Below, one piece after another: positions 31,625 through 46,214 of a DNA stretch of 64,000 nt. Source of the stretch: Streptomyces sp. NBC_01723. Its GTDB lineage: Bacteria; Actinomycetota; Actinomycetes; Streptomycetales; Streptomycetaceae. Both the position numbers and the translations under genes were made by a program. The stretch's first letter is position 1. Each line of letters starts with the position of its first letter. The stretch spans positions 7,800,001-7,864,000 of the forward strand of contig NZ_CP109171.1 of NCBI RefSeq assembly GCF_036246005.1, in the 5' to 3' direction. The notes below the pieces were generated by a model. That model saw only the letters and a list, made by a program, of their open reading frames with translations. It was not told where the DNA came from and searched no databases.

Positions 31625-33091
31625 TCAGCGCTGCAGGGTCAGCAGACCCGGACGGTAGGGCAGGAGACCGTAGTCACCGCCGGAGTTGGGGCTGCGTCCC
31701 TGGTAAAGCAGTTTCAGATTGCAGGGATCGACGGTCATGGTCTGATCGGCGCTGGTGCGGATCAGCTCGCCGTGGCTGATGTCGTTGGTCCAGGTGGCGC
31801 CACTGTTGGCCTTGCCGGCGAAGGGGTTGCTCTCGGTCGCGGCCTGAGGTGTCCAGGAGCCGTTCAGACTGGTAGCCGTGAACGAGCGGAAGTACCGGCC
31901 CTGCGAGCCGATCGCCTCGACGATCATGAGATAGCGGTTCTGACCCTGCAGTTTGTAGACCTGCGGGGCTTCGAACAGGTTGTTCGTCGTATCGCTCATG
32001 ATCACCGTCGAGGTCGAGCCGAAGCTGCCCGGGAAGTTCCCTATCGGCATGCTGGCCCGGTAGATCTTGCCGTTGTCGCCGGCGAAGAACAGGTACATGT
32101 TCGTGCCGTCACCGATGAGTGCCTGGTCGATGGGACCCGTTCCGGAGCCGGAGATGCTTCCGGAGAAGAGCACCTGCTCGGACGACCAGCCGTTCGGGTT
32201 GGTGGGGTCGCTCGACGTCCGATAGGAGAAGGCGGTCCCGCCCCACTGGTAGGCGAGTACCCAGATGTTCTTCGGTGCGAAGTAGAAGAGCGTGGGTGCG
32301 ACGGTGGAGTTGTTCATCGTGTTCTGGCCGGCCGAGGCCATCTCCGACCAGTTGGTGAACAGGCCGAAGTTCATCGAACCCCACCTCGTTCCCGTGTCGT
32401 GCGTGGTGGCGTAGACGAGTTGTCTGCCGTTGTAGGGGGCGACGGTGAAGTCCTTGAGCGAGACCCACCCCTGTTTGGGCTGCGCCAGCGCGCCCGTCGA
32501 CGTCCAGCGGTAGTTCGACGGGAGGTCACACGAGCCGGGGGTGTCGGCGCCGACCTTGACGAGCTGCCACTGCTGGTTGGTGCCGCCCCAGTCGTCGTAC
32601 TGGACGATGTTCGCGTTGTCGGCGGTGGAGGCGCCCTGTACTTCGAGGGCCTTGTTGCTGTGCCGCGAGACGAGCCTCACGTAGCCGTCCGAGCTGTCGG
32701 CCAGTCGCCACTGCTGGTTGGTGCCGTTCAGGTCGGTCCACTGCACAATCGAGCCGCCGTTCGCGGTGGACCAGTTGTGGACGTCCAGTACCTTGCCCGA
32801 GTGGCGGGACTTGATGCGGTAGTAGCCGTCTCCGGAATCGACGAACTGCCACTGCTGCTGGTTCTGGTCGTTCTTGGTCCACTGGGTGATGCGGGCGCCG
32901 TCACCGGTCGCCATGTTGTAGACGTCCAGGGCCTTGCCACTGTTGCGGTTGACCAGCACGTACGAGGCGTTGGGGTCTATGGTCGCGGCCTCGGCGGGCT
33001 GGGCGCCGAGGAAGGCCGCCACCAGAAGCAAGGGCGCGAGAACCCCGAGTAAGCGTCTTGAGCGGACCGGGGACGGGTGGCGAAGCCACAT
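31625..33091 (-). CDS. Secreted GH62 alpha-L-arabinofuranosidase with N-terminal CBM13
   Basis: 488 aa. The signal peptide covers about residues 1-36 (AQPAEAA). Next is a ricin-B/CBM13 beta-trefoil of three repeats with QQW motifs (QQQWQF, NQQWRL, NQQWQL) at about 40-178. The catalytic domain of about 300 residues is GH62: [83 protein letters not shown]. It should remove arabinose side chains from arabinoxylan outside the cell. In S. lividans AbfB, as I recall, the CBM is C-terminal, so the N-terminal position is a difference. Divergent from the GH10 xylanase, its natural partner. Confidence 0.95.
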
Positions 33092-33170
33092 CAGAGGGCC
33101 TCCTTTGGGGGCGGGGTGGGGCGCCGCCGATGAACCGCGGAGCGGCAGCCGCGCCGGGGCGCAGAGGATT

Positions 33171-33181
33171 CGAAACTTTCG
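33171..33181. promoter_or_regulatory. CGAAACTTTCG palindrome upstream of GH62 gene
   Basis: Perfect 11-bp palindrome 80 bp upstream of the GH62 start. GAAA/TTTC palindromes of this form are described upstream of Streptomyces xylanase genes as repressor or regulator sites. A half-matching copy (CGAAAGTTGCG) is at 33369. Confidence 0.6.
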
Positions 33182-33387
33182 GTTCGCTCTCGGATCTGTG
33201 ACGCCACAAGCTAGGAAGGTGGAGACCTCCGGTCAAGGGCTGTCGCCGATCTGTCCGCAAACAGCTCCTCGCCGAGCGTGATGAGCATGTGCGTCACCTG
33301 CGGACCACCAGGTGGTCGGCGACAGCGGCTCGCTGGTCCAGGGGTTCCACCGGCTTGGGGTGGGTCTCCGAAAGTTGCGATCGGAAG

Positions 33388-33401
33388 CGGAAATGTTTCC
33401 G
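33388..33401. promoter_or_regulatory. CGGAAATGTTTCCG palindrome in the xylanase/arabinofuranosidase divergent region
   Basis: Perfect 14-bp inverted repeat (6-bp arms, TG centre) about 300 bp from the GH62 start and 417 bp from the GH10 start. It keeps the GAAA/TTTC core of the site at 33171. TTGACG at 33413 could be a -35 toward the xylanase. The remaining 726-bp region shows no convincing gene. Confidence 0.5.
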
Positions 33402-33787
33402 ATGCAAGAGGATTGACGAGCCACCGACACCTCCTCAATCATCTGTCTGGCAACCCGACCGAAGGCCGAGATGTCGAACTGTGCGGGTCCTGGGCGGACT
33501 GTGCCGTATGCAGAGCCGTGCACGACCGCCCGAGAGATCCGCGCGCCAAAGCACCTGCGCCACTCCGCATTTCGTTCCGATGAGGCTCGCACCGACACAT
33601 CCTGACTCTCCGTGCAGTCGGAGAGGGATGCGACGCCGTGTGACGGCCTCCCGGCTGAGCCGCGCTGGAGTACACCCGTGCCTGGGTCGAAAGACCGCTG
33701 CCGCCCGGCGTACCTCATTCGCCGGCGACCGGGCCCGTCCGTGCCGATTGAGACCCACCCGGGTCCCATGACCGCGGTGTCCGGTGA

Positions 33788-35248
<1,461 letters not shown>

Positions 35249-35278
35249 CCGGCCCTGCACGAAGACATCGCTGATGGT

Positions 35279-35315
35279 CGCGAGGGCCGCCGCCGCCACG
35301 GCGGCGACCCTCGCG
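35279..35315 (+). terminator. Hairpin after the xylanase gene
   Basis: CGCGAGGGCCGCCGCC (35279-35294) pairs with GGCGGCGACCCTCGCG (35300-35315) with 15 of 16 pairs and a 5-nt loop, 30 bp after the stop. Confidence 0.8.
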
Positions 35316-35465
35316 AACAGCACGGCCCGGTGAGGGCGACGTGCTCGGTCGCGGAGCACTCGGCTTGTGGCGCGGGAGTCGGGAAGGCCGGCCATGTGCC
35401 GGTGTGAGTCCTTCAACACCCGGCGGCAGCTGACCCGGCATGCCCGTCCATGTGGTCTCCCGGCA

Positions 35466-35551
35466 ACGCCCTTGACCTGCAGAAGCAGGCAGGGAGCGGA
35501 CGAATCGGGAGTCTCGCCATGTTCCGGACCATGTTCAAGTCCAAGATCTAG
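35466..35551 (+). pseudogene. Truncated second copy of the panD leader and first ten codons
   Basis: ACGCCCTTGACCTGCAGAAG and the following bases to 35497 repeat the panD leader element at 39873-39905 with a single A missing. After 21 nt comes ATG and the peptide MFRTMFKSKI, then TAG. Intact panD reads [28 protein letters not shown] is identical in both. This is a panD 5' end cut off after codon 10, either a decayed paralogue or the scar of a recombination or insertion event that displaced the intact gene 4.4 kb downstream. Confidence 0.75.
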
Positions 35552-36162
35552 TATCTGGGTGTTTGTGCAGGTCAGAGGCTTGATAGCTCCGCTCAGGTCA
35601 GCAAACGGTCAGCATCGGGCGCGGGAGCGTTCCAGCCGGCTTGACCAGGTGGCCGCCATGATGGGGGACCTGGACACAGGTGCCTGGCTCCCGGTTGGGA
35701 GGTTCGCTGAGTTACTCGACAGCACGTCCCCGGCACGTGTCCTGAGTGAGTGGGCTGTCGGGGCCGAAGCGGCGTGCCTTATGGATGCCGCTTGCCCCCT
35801 CCGGCCGCTACCGCGACCTCGGCCGCCCCGGTGTCCTTCTCGTCCCCTGCGCTGGCGTCATGGGCCTCGGCTTCGGCACCGTCGTCATTTCCGAGACCGA
35901 AGCCGCAGCCGACTCCGCCGCGGCGGCCCTCCGCGTGACCTGCTGCGTCATGATCACCCGCGCCCGCGCTCGGAGCCGGTCCCAGGTCTGCAGGGCAGCC
36001 GGCTGCCGCGTCACCTGGTGGCTGCACGGGTAGACCATGATGCGCTGAGCGACCACTGAGGGAGATGTCCGAGGGAAGGGCGGGCGGCCGCCTGACCTGT
36101 CCTTACGACAGGGGACCTCCGTATCCGCCATGCCGCCGCCTCGCAGCAGCGATACTGGATGC
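35552..36162. other. Non-coding or degenerate region
   Basis: About 610 bp without a supported gene. One plus-strand frame (about 35746-36033) contains a protein-like run (YRDLGRPGVLLVPCAGVMGLGFGTVVISETEAAA) but has no ribosome binding site and loses this character at the end, so it may be a decayed gene. Confidence 0.4.
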
Positions 36163-36525
36163 ATGGACACGACGATCACCGCCCCCCGCGCCGAGGTGCT
36201 GCGGGACCGCTACCGCAGCCGACTGCCCGAGCGCTTGCAGGAGCTGGCCGGCCCCGTCGAGGGCGACGTGGCCCTGCCGCTCCACATCGTCTGGTCCGGG
36301 CGGACGAGCTACAGCCTTGACCGTCCGAAATCCCGCATGACGCTGTACCGGACCGTCCTCGCCGAAGGACTGAGTGAGGACCTGGTGGCACTCCTGCACC
36401 ACCGGCTGCTCGCCGAGCAGTGGCCCGTGCTGCGGCGCTTGATCAGTCCCTACATCCGCGAGGTCTGGGAGGACGCCTTCCCCGAGCTGCTCCGCGCCGC
36501 TCCGGCCGACACGACCGCCGCGTGA
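36163..36525 (+). CDS. Small protein paired with AbiEii-type toxin, putative antitoxin
   Basis: 120 aa, no signal peptide. PRAEVLRDRYRSRLPERLQELAGP is followed by LPLHIVWSGRTSYSLDRPKSRMTLYRTVLAEG and LVALLHHRLLAEQWPVLRRLISPYIREVWEDAFPEL, an all-alpha/beta layout without an obvious HTH. Its stop overlaps the GTG of the nucleotidyltransferase gene (GTGA), the tight coupling usual for toxin-antitoxin pairs. It differs from classical AbiEi, so antitoxin status is inferred from context only. Confidence 0.75.
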   Translation: MDTTITAPRAEVLRDRYRSRLPERLQELAGPVEGDVALPLHIVWSGRTSYSLDRPKSRMTLYRTVLAEGLSEDLVALLHHRLLAEQWPVLRRLISPYIREVWEDAFPELLRAAPADTTAA

Positions 36526-37181
36526 AGCTCACTCCGCTCCAAGAGCGTCTCCTCGCCGACATCCTCGACCTCGGCTCCCCTTACCCGCTGGTCCTCACCG
36601 GCGGATACGCCGTGCAGGCCCACGGCCTGGTCGAACGCTTCAGCCGTGACCTCGACGTCGCCACCGAGAATCCCGCTCCGATGCATGAGATCGTCGCCTC
36701 ACTCACGGCAGGCCTCAGCGCGCGCGGATGGCGGACCACGCACGTCCAGACCGATCCGCTCAGCGGCCGGTTCCTCGTCACCGATCGGGACACCGGCGAG
36801 GAGTGCGAGGTCGACGTCCTCAAGGAGGCGTTCTGGGCTCCGCCTGCCCAGACCCCCTACGGCCCGGTGCTTTCCCTCGATGACGTGATCGGCACCAAGG
36901 TCCGTGCCCTCGCCGACCGCGGCACCGTCCGCGACCTCATCGACGTCCAGGCTGCCTCCCGCCATCGCTCCACCGCCGACCTCGAATCCCTGGGCCGGCG
37001 TCGCGCCCACGACCAGTTCAGCCTCGAAGACCTCCGGGACCGGCTCGTCGGCGCGGACTGGTACGAGGATGAGGACTACACCGCTTACGGGCTCACCTCC
37101 CGGCAGATCGAAGAACTCAAGGCGTGGGCGCTGGAGTGGGCGGAGGATCTGGGTGCGCGGATTCATGACGAGAACGCCTGA
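36522..37181 (+). CDS. AbiEii/AbiGii-like nucleotidyltransferase toxin
   Basis: 219 aa. LVLTGGYAVQAHGLVERFSRDLDVAT is the GG...(D)xD nucleotidyltransferase core, with the metal-binding Asp pair in SRDLDVA and a third acidic residue in EVDVLKE. LDDVIGTKVRALADRGTVRDLIDV is the second conserved AbiEii block. Type IV toxins of this kind transfer nucleotides to RNA (pyrimidines onto tRNA in the studied MenT proteins) and can abort phage infection. Translationally coupled to the preceding 120-aa gene. Located in the segment between truncated and intact panD. Confidence 0.9.
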   Translation: MKLTPLQERLLADILDLGSPYPLVLTGGYAVQAHGLVERFSRDLDVATENPAPMHEIVASLTAGLSARGWRTTHVQTDPLSGRFLVTDRDTGEECEVDVLKEAFWAPPAQTPYGPVLSLDDVIGTKVRALADRGTVRDLIDVQAASRHRSTADLESLGRRRAHDQFSLEDLRDRLVGADWYEDEDYTAYGLTSRQIEELKAWALEWAEDLGARIHDENA

Positions 37182-37328
37182 GAGGCGGTCACGCGTCCAT
37201 TCCCTCTACCGCCGTTGCAGCGAGAGGATGCGGTGTAGTCGGCAGTGTTAACCCGGGAGCCGTCCACAGTGGGTGGCTGCCCCGCACGGCGGATGTACAG
37301 GGCAGCCGAGCGATACGCCGCAGTGGAC

Positions 37329-37637
37329 TCAAGGCGAAACCGGGCTGCGATAACGGTCAAATACTGCATCCCGCTCCCACTCCCAGGCCCAGTCAGGGTC
37401 CCGATGGTGGAACTTGGTAACGGCCAGCTCGAAGAATTGGTCGGAAGGCTTCCGGCTGGATCCATTGACTACCAGTGCTGACAGCATCGGCTCGGGACCC
37501 GTGCTGTCCCCCCGGCAGACGTCTGCCGGCAGAAGCGACATCATCCGGCCGTGGTAGTGCACCCGGTGCTCCGGTGCCACGGCCTCGCTCAGCGCCTTGT
37601 AGGCGTCGGTCCGGCCCTCTCGGGCCCACCCCTTCAT
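37329..37637 (-). CDS. Hypothetical protein, 102 aa
   Basis: ATG at 37637 with GGAGGGGG about 6 nt upstream. YKALSEAVAPEHRVHYHGRMMSLL, then PMLSALVVNGSSRKPSDQFFELAV, then DPDWAWEWERDAVF read like a compact alpha/beta domain with conserved-looking Trp and Asp residues. I have no firm family; the SALVV...PSDQFFELA pattern recalls a segment seen in unnamed actinobacterial proteins. It converges on the AbiEii-like gene and belongs to the same accessory segment. Confidence 0.7.
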   Translation of the reverse strand: MKGWAREGRTDAYKALSEAVAPEHRVHYHGRMMSLLPADVCRGDSTGPEPMLSALVVNGSSRKPSDQFFELAVTKFHHRDPDWAWEWERDAVFDRYRSPVSP

Positions 37638-37978
37638 GTGAGCCCCCTCCAGCCGACTGGAGCGACACGGTATCGACTCGGCGCGGTGCTGAGGTTAGAT
37701 CTGGAAAAGTTGCCCGGGCGCCGCCTCGGAGGCGGGGGGAGCGGGGACGCTCACCGCGACGTCCGGCGCGCCCTTCGATTGTCAGTGCCGCCTCCTACGG
37801 TGGGTCTGATGCAGGTTCGGGTGACGCTGCCGTCCTTCGGGGTGGGTAAGCGAGGCCATGCGTTGCATCGCCCGCGCCTACACCGTCACCGCGAGTCGAG
37901 GCCCACGCACCTGGCCGTCAGGTGGTTTGGTTGTCCGCCCAGAGGCCGTCCGGACGGACCTGTCGTCTCAGAGGCGCG
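37638..37978. other. Intergenic region
   Basis: About 340 bp, no supported gene. It lies upstream of the 102-aa gene and downstream of the 462-aa gene, both on the minus strand, and should contain the promoter of the former. No clear hairpin or repeat was seen. Confidence 0.4.
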
Positions 37979-39367
37979 CTAGCGAGTCGAGCACGCGCCG
38001 GGTTCCTCGTTCTGCCCCGGCAGCAGTCGCAGGGCGAAAACGGAGCCGTCGGCGTGGACGGAGACGGGGCCGCCCCAGTTCTTGTCGAAGGTGAGGGAGG
38101 GGCGGACGTCGCGGCTCGCGTGGACGAGGGCGCGGTACTCCTCGACGTCGCCTCTGGCGAGAAGTCGGAAGACTTCCTTGTCCACGCCGGAGAACGCCTC
38201 GGCGCGGGGGCCGTTGAGTCGGAAGACGTGGTCGGTGCCGACGTACTCGGTGCCGAAGAGGGTGTGGGCCGCGTCCTGAATGCTCATGCTGGCCGCGTGT
38301 TCGAGACCGGTGAAGCGTTTGCGGCCCTGCCGGTCGGTCAGGTGGCGGGCGGTTGCGTGGCCGGAGCCGGTGAAGGCCATGAGGCCCGCCGCGGTGGTGT
38401 GGGCCAGGGCCTCCTGGAACCAGGCGTAGTCTTTCGGCTGCACGTGGCAGCCCCGTACGGGCTCCGGTGCCATCAGGCCCTCGGCCGGCGGGTGGATGTG
38501 CGGCATCACGTTCGCCTGGAACGGCGGGGCGTTCAGGTTCGCTTCCCGGCCCTCTGCCGGGGACAGTCGCCCGCCACTGCCCGGTGCCTTGAGGGCGTGG
38601 ACGGTCATCGTGCCGCCGTCCGTAGGGAGTTGTGTACTGAACAGCAGACCGGGGGTCTCGTTCCACGCGCCGATGTGGACTGCTTCGGCATGGGCCGAGG
38701 CGGAGGCCAGCTGGTCGGCGGAGGTGGCGGAGTCGCTGTGGTTGCCCTTGCAGACGAGGGGGATGACGAGGGGCGGCTCGCCCGGCCGCCAGACCTCGGC
38801 AAAGTACTGGGGCCGGTAGCGGTACTTCACCTTCTCGCCCTTGTCCCTGCTGTTGAGGGCCCAGCCCGCGCGTAACGCCGTGTCGGCGGGGACGATTGTC
38901 ACCGAATGGTCGGGGAAGCGGCTGCCCAGCATGTGCTCGGCGAGCGTGAGTGCGAATCCGACGCCAAGCTCGCCGGACTGCAGCGACTTGTAGTGGTCCG
39001 CGATGCGGTGGCCTTCGTCGGTGAGGCCGAGGAAGGAGTCACGACCGCCGGCCAAGGCCTGGGTGTACTTGAGTGCGCCCCAGTGCTCCGCCAGCCCCCG
39101 GCCCGCCCCCCGCCACGACAGGGCAGTGGCCCGGGCGAGGGTGTGCAGCACGTCCCAGAGGGTCACTTCGAACTGCCGGGGCAGCTCCGTCGGCAGGATA
39201 GGGACGAGGGCGGGCTTCCGGCGGAGCGGCTCGAGCACATTCTCCTTGCGTTTCTTGTCGTCCGCCGCGATGGCGGCCGTCACCTTCCCGACGAGCGCAT
39301 CGTCCGAGTGGACGGATACGTTCGAGGGTCGGGTCAGGTCTAGGAGTACTTCCTCGGTCGGCTTCAA
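37979..39367 (-). CDS. Hypothetical 462-aa protein, possible PD-(D/E)XK-like fold
   Basis: I do not recognise a named family. No signal peptide or membrane helix. Residues 60-130 look helical (FEVTLWDVLHTLARATALSWRGAGRGLAEHWGALKYTQAL, then FLGLTDEGHRIADHYKSLQSGE). The centre (GVGFALTLAEHMLG, YRPQYFAEVW, VIPLVCKGNHSDSATSADQL at about 135-220) resembles the order of a restriction-endonuclease-like core, Asp/Glu, beta strand, xxK, QL helix, but Cys206 stands where the acidic residue before Lys207 is expected. Later blocks (NAPPFQANVMPHIHPPAEGLM, AWFQEALAHTTAAGLMAFTGSG) are unassigned. Position next to a toxin-antitoxin pair makes a defence role possible. Confidence 0.75.
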   Translation of the reverse strand: MKPTEEVLLDLTRPSNVSVHSDDALVGKVTAAIAADDKKRKENVLEPLRRKPALVPILPTELPRQFEVTLWDVLHTLARATALSWRGAGRGLAEHWGALKYTQALAGGRDSFLGLTDEGHRIADHYKSLQSGELGVGFALTLAEHMLGSRFPDHSVTIVPADTALRAGWALNSRDKGEKVKYRYRPQYFAEVWRPGEPPLVIPLVCKGNHSDSATSADQLASASAHAEAVHIGAWNETPGLLFSTQLPTDGGTMTVHALKAPGSGGRLSPAEGREANLNAPPFQANVMPHIHPPAEGLMAPEPVRGCHVQPKDYAWFQEALAHTTAAGLMAFTGSGHATARHLTDRQGRKRFTGLEHAASMSIQDAAHTLFGTEYVGTDHVFRLNGPRAEAFSGVDKEVFRLLARGDVEEYRALVHASRDVRPSLTFDKNWGGPVSVHADGSVFALRLLPGQNEEPGACSTR

Positions 39368-39872
39368 CAGCCCTCCTTCACGGTGTGCGCAAGCGGTTCA
39401 CCATCGGGCTGGACCGTACGGAAGGGAGGAACGGCGCACGCAAGTGCGCAGAGGCGCGTGACCTTGGCTTCGGCCCGGGCGGGCCGGCGTCGGCGCCTTG
39501 GCCTCGCTCGCGAGTTCCGCGTTGCCGAGGGGCCTCGGGCGGCAGGGCCCAGCGAGCCGACTTTCGGAGCGGTCGAGCGTCGACCGGTTGATGGTCAAAG
39601 GAGCCGTGCTCCGTGAGCCAGAGCGAGGTCGGTGCCCGACAGATCGGTGGTGCTTGGGCGCACGTCATCCGTGTGTGCAGAGGAGTCTCCCGCATGCCTG
39701 ATGGCTCATCAGGTAAGTCGGCATCCGGTCAGCATGAGTCCCCGCACGTTCCGGGGCGATCGTCCCAACAGGTGCCGGTGCGAAGGGAAAGCCCAGGTGG
39801 GAAAGCCGTCCAGCCCGACCGGAGCGATGTTCCTCACAAACATCGAACGGGGGTGTCGGTGTAAAGTCGAGG
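39368..39872. other. Upstream region of panD
   Basis: About 500 bp with no supported gene. CCTGATG (39697-39703) and CATCAGG (39707-39713) form a 7-bp hairpin with a GCT loop. The region is rich in short G/C-paired stems (for example CCCCG...CGGGG near 39754) and could be a long structured leader, but I see no match to a riboswitch class. Confidence 0.45.
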
Positions 39873-39905
39873 ACGCCCTTGACCTGCAGAAAGCAGGCAG
39901 GGAGC
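39873..39905 (+). promoter_or_regulatory. panD leader element, repeated at 35466
   Basis: A 33-nt stretch beginning ACGCCCTTGACCTGCAGAAA with an internal CCTGC/GCAGG stem. It lies 19 nt before the panD start and recurs almost unchanged (one base missing) before the truncated panD copy. Conservation of the leader together with the codons suggests it belonged to the duplicated unit. Confidence 0.5.
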
Positions 39906-39924
39906 CGTCTCAGAGGAGTCCCAA

Positions 39925-40344
39925 GTGCTGCGTACTCTGTTCAAGTCCAAGATCCACCGCGCCACCGTCACCCAGGCCGACCTGCACTACGTCGGTTCCG
40001 TGACCATCGATGCCGATCTGCTCGACGCCGCCGACCTGCTGCCCGGGGAACTGGTGCACATCGTGGACATCACCAACGGGGCCCGGCTGGAGACGTACGT
40101 CATCGAGGGGGAGCGGGGGTCCGGGGTGGTCGGGATCAACGGGGCCGCCGCGCATCTCGTGCACCCCGGTGACCTGGTGATCATCATCAGCTACGCCCAG
40201 GTCACCGACGCCGAGGCCCGGGCGCTGCGGCCGCGGGTCGTGCACGTGGACGGCGACAACCGTATCGTCGCCCTGGGTGCCGACGCGTCCGAGCCGGTGC
40301 CCGGTTCGGACCAGGAGCGCAGCCCGCAGGCCGTGTCGGTCTGA
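39925..40344 (+). CDS. panD: Aspartate 1-decarboxylase proenzyme
   Basis: 139 aa. It makes beta-alanine from aspartate for pantothenate and coenzyme A. Gly24-Ser25 in HYVGSVTID is the autocleavage site that yields the pyruvoyl group; Lys9, His11 and Tyr22 of the active site are in place, as is [12 protein letters not shown] and [22 protein letters not shown] at 39925 follows AGAGGAG by about 6 nt. The C-terminal 20 residues are longer than the usual family end. It stands alone, without panB or panC, and is followed 31 bp later by a GNAT gene. Confidence 0.97.
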
Positions 40345-40375
40345 CGTACCGATCCAGGGGACGAGGAGCGTGACC

Positions 40376-40720
40376 GTGAGCGACATCGAGATCCGTGACG
40401 ACCGGGCGGCGGGCCGGCTGGAGGCGTTCGCGGCCGGCGAGGTCGTCGGCCGGGTCGAGTACTTCGTCCTGGACGCTCCCGAGCGGGCCCTCGTCCCCGT
40501 CCACACCGTCGTCGAACCGGCGCATGAGGGCCGCGGCATCGCGGGCTCGCTGGCGCGTGAGCTGTACGCCCTGGCATGCCGCGAGGGCGTCGCCGTCGCT
40601 CCGCTCTGCCCCTACGTCGTGAAGTGGGCCGAGCGCCATCCCGAAGAGGCGCCCGCCGCCGATCCGGAGCTGCTGCGCGCGGCCAAGGAGTGGCTCGTGG
40701 CGAATCCCGAGCGCTTCTGA
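40376..40720 (+). CDS. GNAT-type N-acetyltransferase (small YjdJ/YidJ-like family)
   Basis: 114 aa. VEYFVLDAPERALVPVHTVVEPAHEGRGIAGSLARELYALACREGVAVAPLCPYV is the short acetyltransferase fold with the acetyl-CoA loop HEGRGIAGSL. Of two GTG codons I chose 40376, because GAGGAG lies 7 nt upstream, rather than 40370. Likely co-transcribed with panD and the racemase-like gene. Substrate unknown. Confidence 0.9.
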   Translation: MSDIEIRDDRAAGRLEAFAAGEVVGRVEYFVLDAPERALVPVHTVVEPAHEGRGIAGSLARELYALACREGVAVAPLCPYVVKWAERHPEEAPAADPELLRAAKEWLVANPERF

Positions 40721-40769
40721 ACTGGACGGTAGACAACCGACGAGGGCGAGGGACGAAAGGAGCGCGCGC

Positions 40770-41438
40770 TTGCTGGCACTGCTGCACACCTCGCCCGTCC
40801 ACGTCCCGGTCTTCGACGCCCTGCGCGACGCGGCGCACCCGGGTCTGGAGCTGCGGCATCACGTCGACGCCGGGTTGCTGGAACGGGCGCGGCGCGAGGG
40901 GCCCGAGGCGGTGACGGACGCCGTGCGTGGCGTGGTGCGGCGGGCCGTGGGGGAGGGGGCGAGGGCCGTGCTGTGCACCTGCTCCACCATCGGTGCCGTC
41001 GCTGAGGGCGCCGCCGACGAGGCCGGGGTGCCCGTGCTGCGGGTCGACCGGCCCATGGCCGCCGCCGCGGTGGCCGCCGGCCCACGCGTCGTCGTCCTCG
41101 CCGCCCTGGAGAGCACGCTCGCTCCGACGGCGGCCCTGGTCGAGGAGGAGTCCCGGCGCGCCGGCCGTGCCGTGCGGCTGCGGACCCGGCTGGTCGAGGG
41201 CGCCTGGGCGCGGTTCGAGGCCGGTGACACCGAGGGCTTTCTGCGGCTGGTGGCCGAGGCCGCCGAGGCCGTCACCGGTGCCGACGTGATCGTCCTGGCC
41301 CAGGCATCCATGGCGCCGGCCCGGGACTCGGCCCGAACCCGCCTCCCGGTGCTCGCCAGCCCCGCGCCCGGACTGGCCGCCGGAGCGGAGGCGGCGCGCC
41401 TCGGCCACCTGGGCCCGGGGGTTCATGCGGGGGAGTGA
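40770..41438 (+). CDS. Asp/Glu racemase-superfamily protein
   Basis: 222 aa. HTSPVHVPVFDALRD at the start and two conserved Cys/Ser-type loops: VLCTCSTIGAVAEGAADEAGVPVLRVDRPMA (nucleophile Cys in CTCSTIG) and VIVLAQASMA, where the second catalytic Cys of true racemases is replaced by Ala or Ser. Loss of one Cys suggests a decarboxylase- or isomerase-like relative, or a non-racemising member. The TTG start at 40770 has AAAGGAG 7 nt upstream. Confidence 0.88.
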   Translation: MLALLHTSPVHVPVFDALRDAAHPGLELRHHVDAGLLERARREGPEAVTDAVRGVVRRAVGEGARAVLCTCSTIGAVAEGAADEAGVPVLRVDRPMAAAAVAAGPRVVVLAALESTLAPTAALVEEESRRAGRAVRLRTRLVEGAWARFEAGDTEGFLRLVAEAAEAVTGADVIVLAQASMAPARDSARTRLPVLASPAPGLAAGAEAARLGHLGPGVHAGE

Positions 41439-41512
41439 GTGCGGCGGCGGGCGTCGGGTAGGCGGGGGACAAGTCCAGAGCCGACGTCGACGACTGGCCG
41501 GAGGACAGCGCC

Positions 41513-41809
41513 ATGACGAACCCGTATCCGGATCCCGTTCCGCCGGGGCCCACTCCGGGGCCCTCACCAGGTCCGGACCCGGAGCCCCCACAGCCGCACC
41601 CCGACCCGGTGCCGCCACCGAGCCCGGGCCCGGAACCGACCCCGCCGCCTCCGCCCCCGGGGCCCGGCCCGGAACCCACGCCGCAGCCCCCGGGGCCCGG
41701 CCCGCAGCCGACACCGCAGCCGCCGGGGCCTCCCGAGCCCTCGCCGTCACCGATCCCGCCGGGACCGGAGCCGGTGCCCAGCCCGGAACCGGGACCGCCC
41801 CTCACCTGA
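41513..41809 (+). CDS. Proline-rich low-complexity protein
   Basis: 98 aa, about half Pro with Gly, Ser, Glu and Gln, built from PGPEPTPQPP-like units. GGAGG stands 7-8 nt before ATG. No signal peptide or hydrophobic segment, so probably a disordered cytoplasmic protein, or a spurious frame in repetitive DNA. The gene end faces the complex terminator at 41841. Confidence 0.5.
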   Translation: MTNPYPDPVPPGPTPGPSPGPDPEPPQPHPDPVPPPSPGPEPTPPPPPPGPGPEPTPQPPGPGPQPTPQPPGPPEPSPSPIPPGPEPVPSPEPGPPLT

Positions 41810-41840
41810 GGGACGCCCGAGCCGACCGGGGCAACCAAGG

Positions 41841-41948
41841 CGAAGGGGCCGGTGGACGAGTCCCGCCGCGGTCTCACCGCGTCTCGTCGCGGTCTCACTC
41901 ACCGCGATCTCACCGCGGTCTCACCGCGGCCGTCCACCGGCCCCTTCG
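41841..41948. terminator. 18-bp perfect inverted repeat enclosing tandem 11-bp repeats, between convergent genes
   Basis: CGAAGGGGCCGGTGGACG (41841-41858) pairs exactly with CGTCCACCGGCCCCTTCG (41931-41948). The 72-nt loop is a degenerate array of CGCGGTCTCAC-like units (about five copies). It lies 31 bp after the proline-rich ORF and 27 bp from the end of gnd, so it can end both transcripts. Confidence 0.75.
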
Positions 41949-41975
41949 GCCTGCCCCGCCCCGCCCCGCTGCGCG

Positions 41976-43415
41976 TTACGCCGTGACCTCCGACCGGTCC
42001 CCGCCCCACAGCGTGTGGAACGCGCCGTCCCGGTCCGTCCTCCGGTACGTGTGCGCGCCGAAGAAGTCCCGCTGCCCCTGCGTCAGCGCCGCGGGCAGCC
42101 GCTCGGCGCGCAGCGCGTCGTAGTAGGCGAGGGCGGCGGCGAACCCGGGCGTCGGCACGCCCTGCCGGGTCGCGGCGACCAGGACCTCGCGCCAGTCGTC
42201 CTGGGCGGCGGCGATCTCCTGCGCGAACGTCTCGTCCGACAGCAGGCTCGGCAGGTCGGGTCGGGCGTCGTACGCGGCGCGGATGCGGTCCAGGAAGGCC
42301 GCGCGGATGATGCAGCCGCCGCGCCAGATCGCGGAGACCGCGCCCAGGTCGATGTCCCAGCCGTACTCCTCACTGCCCGCCGCGATCTCGTGGAAGCCCT
42401 GCGTGTACGAGACGATCTTCGACGCGTACAGGGCCTGCTCGACGCGGTCGGCGAAGGCGGCCGCCTCCGACTCGCCGAGCGCCGACGCCTTCGGACCCTC
42501 CAGCCCCCGCGAGGCCTCCCGCAGCGCCGCGTGCCCGGACAGCGACCGGGCGAAGACGGCCTCCGCGATACCGGACACCGGCACGCCCAGGTCCAGCGCG
42601 ATCTGCACCGTCCAGCGGCCCGTGCCCTTCTGCTCCGCCTGGTCGACCACCACGTCCACGAACGGCTTGCCGGTCTCCGCGTCCACGTGCGACAGCACCT
42701 CGGCGGTGATCTCGATCAGGTACGAGTCCAGCCGGCCGGTGTTCCAGGTGCGGAAGATGTCGGCGATCTGCGCGGGGGAGTACCCGGCGACGTCGCGCAG
42801 CAGCTGGTACGCCTCGCCGATCAGCTGCATGTCGGCGTACTCGATGCCGTTGTGCACCATCTTCACGAAGTGCCCGGCACCGTCGGGGCCCACGTGCGTC
42901 ACGCAGGGCGCCTCGTCCGCCGCCTTCGCGGAGATCTTCTCCAGCATCGGGCCCAGCGACCCGTACGACTCCTTCGAGCCGCCCGGCATGATGCTCGGGC
43001 CGTGCAGCGCGCCCTCCTCGCCGCCGGAGATGCCCGTGCCGACGAAGTGGATGCCCTGCTCGCGCAGTTCGCGTTCCCGGCGCCTGGTGTCCGCGAAGTG
43101 GGCGTTGCCCCCGTCGATGATCATGTCGCCCGGCTCCAGGAGCGGGGCGAACTCCTGGATCACCGCGTCGGTCGGGTCACCGGCCTTGACCATGATCACC
43201 AGGCGTCGGGGCCGCTCCAGCGCCGCCACGAACTCCTTGGCGGTCTCGGTCGCGACGAAGTCGCCCTCGCCGCCGAACTCCTCCACCAGCGCGTGCGTGC
43301 GCGACGCCGTGCGGTTGTGCAACGCGACCGTGTAGCCGTTGCGGGCGAAGTTGCGGGCGAGGTTGCGGCCCATGACCGCGAGACCCGTGACGCCGATCTG
43401 CGCTGTACTGCTCAT
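41976..43415 (-). CDS. gnd: 6-phosphogluconate dehydrogenase, decarboxylating
   Basis: 479 aa, full length for the long-chain (dimeric) form. IGVTGLAVMGRNLARNFARNG is the NADP-binding motif (GLAVMG), HNRT the cofactor-specificity loop, GGNAHFADT and FVGTGISGGEEGALHGPSIMPGG the substrate motif, GHFVKMVHNGIEY the catalytic Lys, and GCIIRAAFLDRI with the RTDRDGAFHT tail are all intact. It oxidises 6-phosphogluconate to ribulose 5-phosphate and CO2 with NADPH production. AGGAG precedes ATG at 43415. Divergent from the Rpf/M23 gene, an arrangement I recall from S. coelicolor. Confidence 0.98.
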   Translation of the reverse strand: MSSTAQIGVTGLAVMGRNLARNFARNGYTVALHNRTASRTHALVEEFGGEGDFVATETAKEFVAALERPRRLVIMVKAGDPTDAVIQEFAPLLEPGDMIIDGGNAHFADTRRRERELREQGIHFVGTGISGGEEGALHGPSIMPGGSKESYGSLGPMLEKISAKAADEAPCVTHVGPDGAGHFVKMVHNGIEYADMQLIGEAYQLLRDVAGYSPAQIADIFRTWNTGRLDSYLIEITAEVLSHVDAETGKPFVDVVVDQAEQKGTGRWTVQIALDLGVPVSGIAEAVFARSLSGHAALREASRGLEGPKASALGESEAAAFADRVEQALYASKIVSYTQGFHEIAAGSEEYGWDIDLGAVSAIWRGGCIIRAAFLDRIRAAYDARPDLPSLLSDETFAQEIAAAQDDWREVLVAATRQGVPTPGFAAALAYYDALRAERLPAALTQGQRDFFGAHTYRRTDRDGAFHTLWGGDRSEVTA

Positions 43416-43498
43416 TGGGATGGCTCCTAGTGACCTTGGTGTCGGTGGTGCCGGTCGTGTCCGCCAGTATGGCCGGTTCCGCCCCGTGACCATCCTGA

Positions 43499-46214
<2,716 letters not shown>

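Follow-up and report, generated by a model that had tools for sequence, protein, structure and literature searches.

A probable integrase-less integrative element between two panD starts in Streptomyces

The window analysed here, a stretch of 64,000 nucleotides from Streptomyces sp. NBC_01723, holds two copies of a short leader followed by the start of panD, a gene that acts in the synthesis of coenzyme A. How did this gene come by a second, truncated beginning, and what is the DNA between the two? A first reading made from the letters alone, called hereafter the sequence-only reading, had offered two origins: an element could have entered at panD and made the gene whole again at one end, or a local duplication could have been followed by insertion. 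The first of these was borne out, as a footprint of this kind, its element end conserved, was found in 53 genomes of our genus sample. We conclude that positions 35549–39954 are very probably an integrative element, which entered the panD core by means of a tyrosine integrase and is now a non-autonomous, CIME-like member of a family using the panD site. Its features are given in Table 1.

Table 1. Positions of the features of the panD locus, numbered from the first letter of the window
Feature	Position	Strand	Remarks
Leader hairpin, old (left) panD start	35466..35498	+	upstream region class B-like
Truncated panD start, MFRTMFKSKI-stop	35519..35551	+	final 3 nt very probably element-derived
attL core TTCAAGTCCAAGATC	35534..35548	+	exact copy
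Probable integrative element	35549-39954 (4.4 kb)		inserted inside the 15-bp core TTCAAGTCCAAGATC, panD codons 6-10
CAGGTCAG	35568..35575	+	19 nt past core, conserved among junctions
P' arm-like tandem GGTCAGCA sites	35596..35614	+	at 35596 and 35607; pair with 0 mismatches
120-aa toxin partner, putative antitoxin	36163..36525	+	family-less; overlaps toxin start
AbiEii-type toxin, 219 aa	36522..37181	+	PF08843, E 4.7e-17; integrase near here in related elements
102-aa frame, doubtful gene	37329..37637	-	
462-aa protein	37979..39367	-	widespread actinobacterial family, unknown function
P arm-like site GGTCAGCA	39727..39734	+	213 nt 5' of right core
Leader hairpin carried by element	39873..39905	+	class A
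Intact panD	39925..40344	+	PF02261; codons 1-10 very probably element-derived
attR core TTCAAGTCCAAGATC	39940..39954	+	exact copy

Two panD starts of different classes around a 4.4-kb segment

The repeat is as the sequence-only reading had described it: the core is exact at both places, the left frame is closed and the right panD is intact. The repeat of the target gene is present at both ends of the segment, and the gene is whole at one of them. A search of the complete 8.85-Mb genome revealed only two exact copies of the core, both at panD, and a third match with one mismatch; within the window, four matches with three mismatches or fewer were present, versus 0.33 expected from shuffles. When the 30 nt of the left copy were fused to the panD body, a full PanD frame resulted.

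Aligned with each other, the two copies agree at 79% over no more than 86 columns, and the likeness stops at the leader. The left copy with its upstream sequence matches one class of panD starts from other species (79–82% over 146–156 nt; 78–82% for the best eight listed), whereas the matches of the right copy are with a second class of Streptomyces starts (up to 93% over 153 nt). Since the two ends belong to different allele classes, a simple local duplication does not explain the copies of the window. Had the panD start been duplicated locally and unrelated DNA then been inserted, leader and start would likewise be present in two copies, but given these classes, and a conserved element end that follows the truncated copy in 65 junctions (see below), we consider such an origin highly improbable.

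In the mechanism that we propose for the element, a tyrosine integrase would have recombined inside TTCAAGTCCAAGATC, at codons 6–10 of panD. The crossover would have severed the old panD start, left behind as the left copy and closed by a stop supplied by the element, and would have joined the panD body to an upstream region, a leader and ten codons from the element's right end. The right copy, whose upstream region resembles that of other panD genes, is probably the one that drives panD.

The genes of the element had been read as an AbiEii-type pair and two orphans. Compared with AbiE, a type IV toxin–antitoxin system, the toxin has the AbiEii domain; its 120-aa partner matches no family, and no AbiEi-family antitoxin was thus recognized beside it. 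The 102-aa frame indeed lacks a family match, and its status as a gene is doubtful, as its score on a coding measure of our own was the lowest of those listed for the window frames. The 462-aa protein turned out not to be an orphan: of 7995 candidates scored, 284 were related to it at E≤0.001. Its structural model has a mean pLDDT of 79 and a pTM of 0.86, and a fold search with it found nothing in the PDB at E≤0.001. The same protein lies beside the AbiEii pair in G111 and, at partial length within the stretch read, in G124.

A scan of four element frames gave no match to a TraB/FtsK-type transfer protein or to Rep, so that the element does not class as an AICE. No trace of an integrase was found in the stretch 33000–44000 (tblastn, E≤1), the element included, nor was one found in the genome at E≤1e-30 among the 5 of 15 first-look candidates that were scored. 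The loss of an integrase, which the sequence-only reading had guessed, fits.

That reading had also looked to relatives for an empty site, where the xylanase region would join panD directly. Neither the use of the xylanase (GH10) gene as anchor nor G277, a genome of the same species, revealed an empty site that carries the left flank seen in the window; G277 shared only one 3.2-kb block with this upstream flank at the filter used. The xylanase had to be abandoned as a left anchor, since its homologue (86–92% identity) lies away from panD in nine relatives. Comparison of the flanks upstream of left junctions with those of intact panD genes revealed mostly shared right-end modules or short stretches, and no clean empty site. 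In the window, GH62 and GH10 genes with ricin-type lectin domains adjoin the island (31625–35248).

The panD start as a probable integration site across Streptomyces

The exact core was found in 276 of 392 genomes of the genus. In 31 of the 392 it occurred at least twice on one strand of one contig, at distances of 4.4 to 136 kb, and in some genomes three or four cores stood in a row; in G277, two cores at panD enclose an interval of 37.7 kb. A junction pattern, AAGATCT-N18-CAGGTCAG, was present in 54 of the 392 genomes and its reversed control in none. After fetching, 48 of these 54 proved to have the panD core with at most three mismatches, four matches lay away from the consensus and were likely due to chance (G243, G297, G153, G239), and two genomes had no core within three mismatches (G130, G363). 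Five genomes added by other routes (G131, G269, G293, G299, G301) brought the number with junctions to 53. In a sample of the family, the pattern was found in 5 of 121 genomes, namely 4 of 28 within the genus and 1 of 93 outside, the latter being unlike the consensus.

The 65 junctions fetched from the 53 genomes are a non-random set, picked for paired cores, the pattern or an integrase, and four of them have less than 2.5 kb readable downstream. Two of 67 matches, with the core TTCCAGCCCAAGAAC, were taken as chance and dropped, which lowered the class with neither integrase nor AbiEii from 21 to 19. The element end is conserved among the 65 and shared at the same site: CAGGTCAG stands 19 nt past the core, and a pair of GGTCAGCA sites, 11 bp apart, comes next at about +48 and +59. 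The pair is present in 60 of 65 junctions with at most 4 mismatches out of 16, and is perfect in the window. Similar pairs were observed 5' of intact panD, at about −249/−238, −224/−213 or −149/−138, where the window has one exact site. The GGTCAGCA sites, which we take to resemble the P and P' arms of a lambda-type attachment site, are putative integrase-binding sites. Their use as a mark of a present element only was rejected: pairs also precede panD genes without a junction, and they do not therefore mark element-bearing genomes alone.

Judged from these genome comparisons, the start of panD is a site that has been entered repeatedly across Streptomyces. The leader/panD fragment also flanks other islands, a point that the sequence-only reading had raised; it recurs at panD, often with an integrase just inside the junction. 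This integrase is a tyrosine recombinase of 370 aa (PF00589), which begins 169–187 nt past the core at panD-site junctions; its carriers include S. toxytricini JCM 4421, S. zaomyceticus JCM 4864 and S. pilosus JCM 4403. Among full-length integrases of at least 78% identity, 26 of 26 loci had the core (at most two mismatches) 183–201 nt before the start, versus 0 of 13 among full-length relatives at 46–70%, in a tally that drew on two locus sets sharing some genomes for the 26 and excluded partial integrases from both groups. Immediately upstream of one of the 13 distant relatives (L151), a leader and start of panD are present, without the core. In phage and plasmid records, all matches of the panD integrase were below 60% identity (23–28% among the matches listed), and no relative was found in viral contigs.

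The left end of the element takes several forms. An intact integrase was found at 16 of the 65 junctions, a remnant at 17 (two of them more than 2 kb from the junction), the AbiEii pair without integrase at 13, the window included, and neither at 19. Integrase and AbiEii pair were never found together: the pair, once partial and in each case free of integrase within 2.5 kb, occurred at 13 of the 65 junctions and at 0 of the 33 with an integrase. Because it has the AbiEii pair in place of the integrase at its left end, the window element could not excise by itself. We infer that a foreign integrase moves it; this would be the enzyme of a relative, or the element would move together with a neighbour.

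The distribution of the AbiEii module bears on this point. In eight hosts where both could be compared, the module was 93.8–96.8% identical to that of the window, versus 77.8–88.5% for the panD region, which was aligned over 350–1402 nt; four further hosts had no comparable panD stretch. With the module more alike between hosts than the panD regions, the integrase-less AbiEii form seems to have spread between species. Over its full length and at 93% identity or more, the module was present in 24 of 392 genomes, the window's own among them. Among the other 23, it was at most 9 kb from a panD core or junction in 20 (one core having three mismatches); the remaining three were G332, G142 and G017, and in G017 the module shares an 8.1-kb contig with fragments of integrase. 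Five copies checked at 86–91% identity were not near a core. The shortest core-to-core interval around the pair was 2.3 kb, in G108, and at three loci (L044, L046, L070) a single unbroken match at 90–91% ran from the left panD copy into the AbiEii region.

These data have to be weighed against two other accounts. The window segment could be the decayed and immobile remainder of an autonomous island, its integrase lost in place and integrase-less forms in general being immobile. The integrase remnants at 17 of 65 junctions agree with such decay, and the 19 junctions with neither integrase nor AbiEii imply that many elements may simply be decayed; AICE decay with retained repeats is moreover described for Streptomyces in PMC9513070. 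We nevertheless regard this account as rather doubtful, since a pair free of integrase traces recurs at 13 of 65 junctions, is more alike between hosts than the panD regions, and is reached by the unbroken match from the left panD copy at the three loci above. The modules could also have spread by homologous recombination between panD regions, without an integrase. The conserved panD body on one side, the right-end modules common to several genomes and the homology offered by core arrays would favour this, yet it appears unlikely in view of the highly variable upstream flanks and of a crossover point that coincides with a 15-bp core adjoining an integrase. Movement by a related integrase is preferred over homologous exchange.

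The panD leader: host or element DNA

If elements entering at panD bring a new 5' end with them, to whom does the leader belong? Leaders were classed by our own rules in 89 Streptomyces panD starts, a non-random set that includes element-bearing genomes picked earlier: 84 had the hairpin leader, which is the element type, and five (G036, G043, G048, G069, G086) were of the GGCGCGTACC class. In 28 genomes of other genera of the family (L306–L333), 16 starts were panC–panD-like, which is our own assumption from a motif, six were of the GGCGCGTACC class, five had the hairpin leader and one was different. In Streptomyces, an arm-like pair accompanied the hairpin leader in 58 of 83 cases and the GGCGCGTACC-class start in 0 of 5; outside Streptomyces the figures were 3 of 5 for the hairpin, 1 of 6 for GGCGCGTACC, 0 of 16 for the panC–panD-like and 0 of 1 for the other start. 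The GGCGCGTACC class is itself a second conserved panD leader, GGCGCGTACC ... GCGCGACC, shared by the 6 of 28 genomes from other genera and the 5 of 89 Streptomyces.

The hairpin is strong, with z scores of −5.3 for the left leader and −3.9 for the right one, both on short stretches. An Rfam search of 35000–40500 assigned the leader to no family and gave one chance-level match elsewhere. One half of the leader, TGACCTGC, recurs inverted as GCAGGTCA across the core.

Leader class was then set against panD phylogeny. The tree requires 36 changes of class, versus 37–52 (median 44) in 200 shuffles; being slightly below any shuffle, this is close to random, with some signal of descent remaining. 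Class A leaders were found in 17 of 27 genomes with junctions versus 12 of 62 without (Fisher test, p 1.4e-4). In 27 genome pairs the leaders were at most one base apart over panD bodies 84–92% identical (median of all pairs, 84%), which fits a repeated replacement of the panD start. Among the left copies, 62 of 65 had the hairpin leader and 0 of 65 a GGCGCGTACC-class start, so that a first insertion into an unconverted panD was not caught.

We tentatively suggest, as a reading that could well prove wrong, that integrative elements have taken over the panD upstream region and leader in nearly the whole genus. Each integration would swap the 5' end of the gene, the control of panD would be a mobile trait, and small AbiEii cassettes without an integrase would be carried about as satellites by the elements' integrase. 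On this reading the leader would consist of mobile-element DNA, in part an attachment site, and would not be a host riboregulator. It is almost an even prospect, however, that leader and sites are host-owned and were acquired by the elements from an early Streptomyces panD, the genus-wide leader not being mobile DNA. Host ownership agrees with the frequency of the leader (84 of 89 starts in Streptomyces, 62 of 65 left copies) and with the absence of a GGCGCGTACC-class left copy among the 65, as well as with the strong hairpin and a number of tree changes slightly below that of the shuffles. Less easily reconciled with it are the other leader of five Streptomyces and 6 of 28 other genomes, with the arm-like pair absent in 10 of these 11, the same kind of arm-like sites preceding related integrases at other genes, and the near-identical leaders over diverged panD bodies in 27 genome pairs. 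Should the takeover by elements hold, the sequence that governs a central metabolic gene has been replaced time and again by mobile DNA throughout a genus, and the in-trans movement of integrase-less islands becomes directly testable.

Relation to known elements and other contents of the site

The window element would work like the SXT ICE at prfC and the dusA-specific islands (IMEVchUSA3). It differs from them in its target, panD in Streptomyces, in its lack of an integrase, and in belonging to a site whose integrase is only distantly matched in phage and plasmid collections. A search of the open-licence literature found no report of panD as an integration site. Cis-mobilizable elements (CIMEs), as characterized in PMC5704250, keep both att sites, have lost integrase and transfer genes, and accrete in tandem; TR1/TR2 of Streptomyces is treated as a case of this type in PMC8369830. 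The window element is alike in keeping attL and attR while integrase and transfer genes are absent (four frames scanned; tblastn). It departs from the CIME in that one integrase-less AbiEii type recurs here in many species, with a putative mobilisation. Integrases, accretion and decay are documented for the actinomycete ICEs (AICEs) of Streptomyces in PMC9513070 and PMC3218068; of the insertions given in the former, 36 lie in tRNA genes, against 14 in genes that code for proteins. The insertions so described are mostly in tRNA genes, whereas the window element sits in panD and has no recognised transfer or replication gene. The panD start would be a Streptomyces integration hotspot of a kind that surveys based on tRNA sites or on integrases would tend to miss, and its integrase, core and ends could become an integration tool.

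Seven integrases 47–49% identical to that of panD (L155, L157, L158, L160, L161, L163, L164) show the same GGTCAGCA/CAGGTCAG layout on their upstream side, beside other sequences. Their neighbours are a frame starting with MFYYLLK, presumably plsC-like, a frame starting with MKMLIFVAEF, and a third frame on the opposite strand, which we take to be pirin-like. These relatives possibly form a wider integrase family specialised on protein genes.

The panD site may also be a defence hotspot. The element of G250 (L064) carries Gabija-like genes, for GajB- and GajA-like proteins, together with a methyltransferase and a PDC-S18 protein, and that of G238 (L072) carries pPIWI-RE genes.
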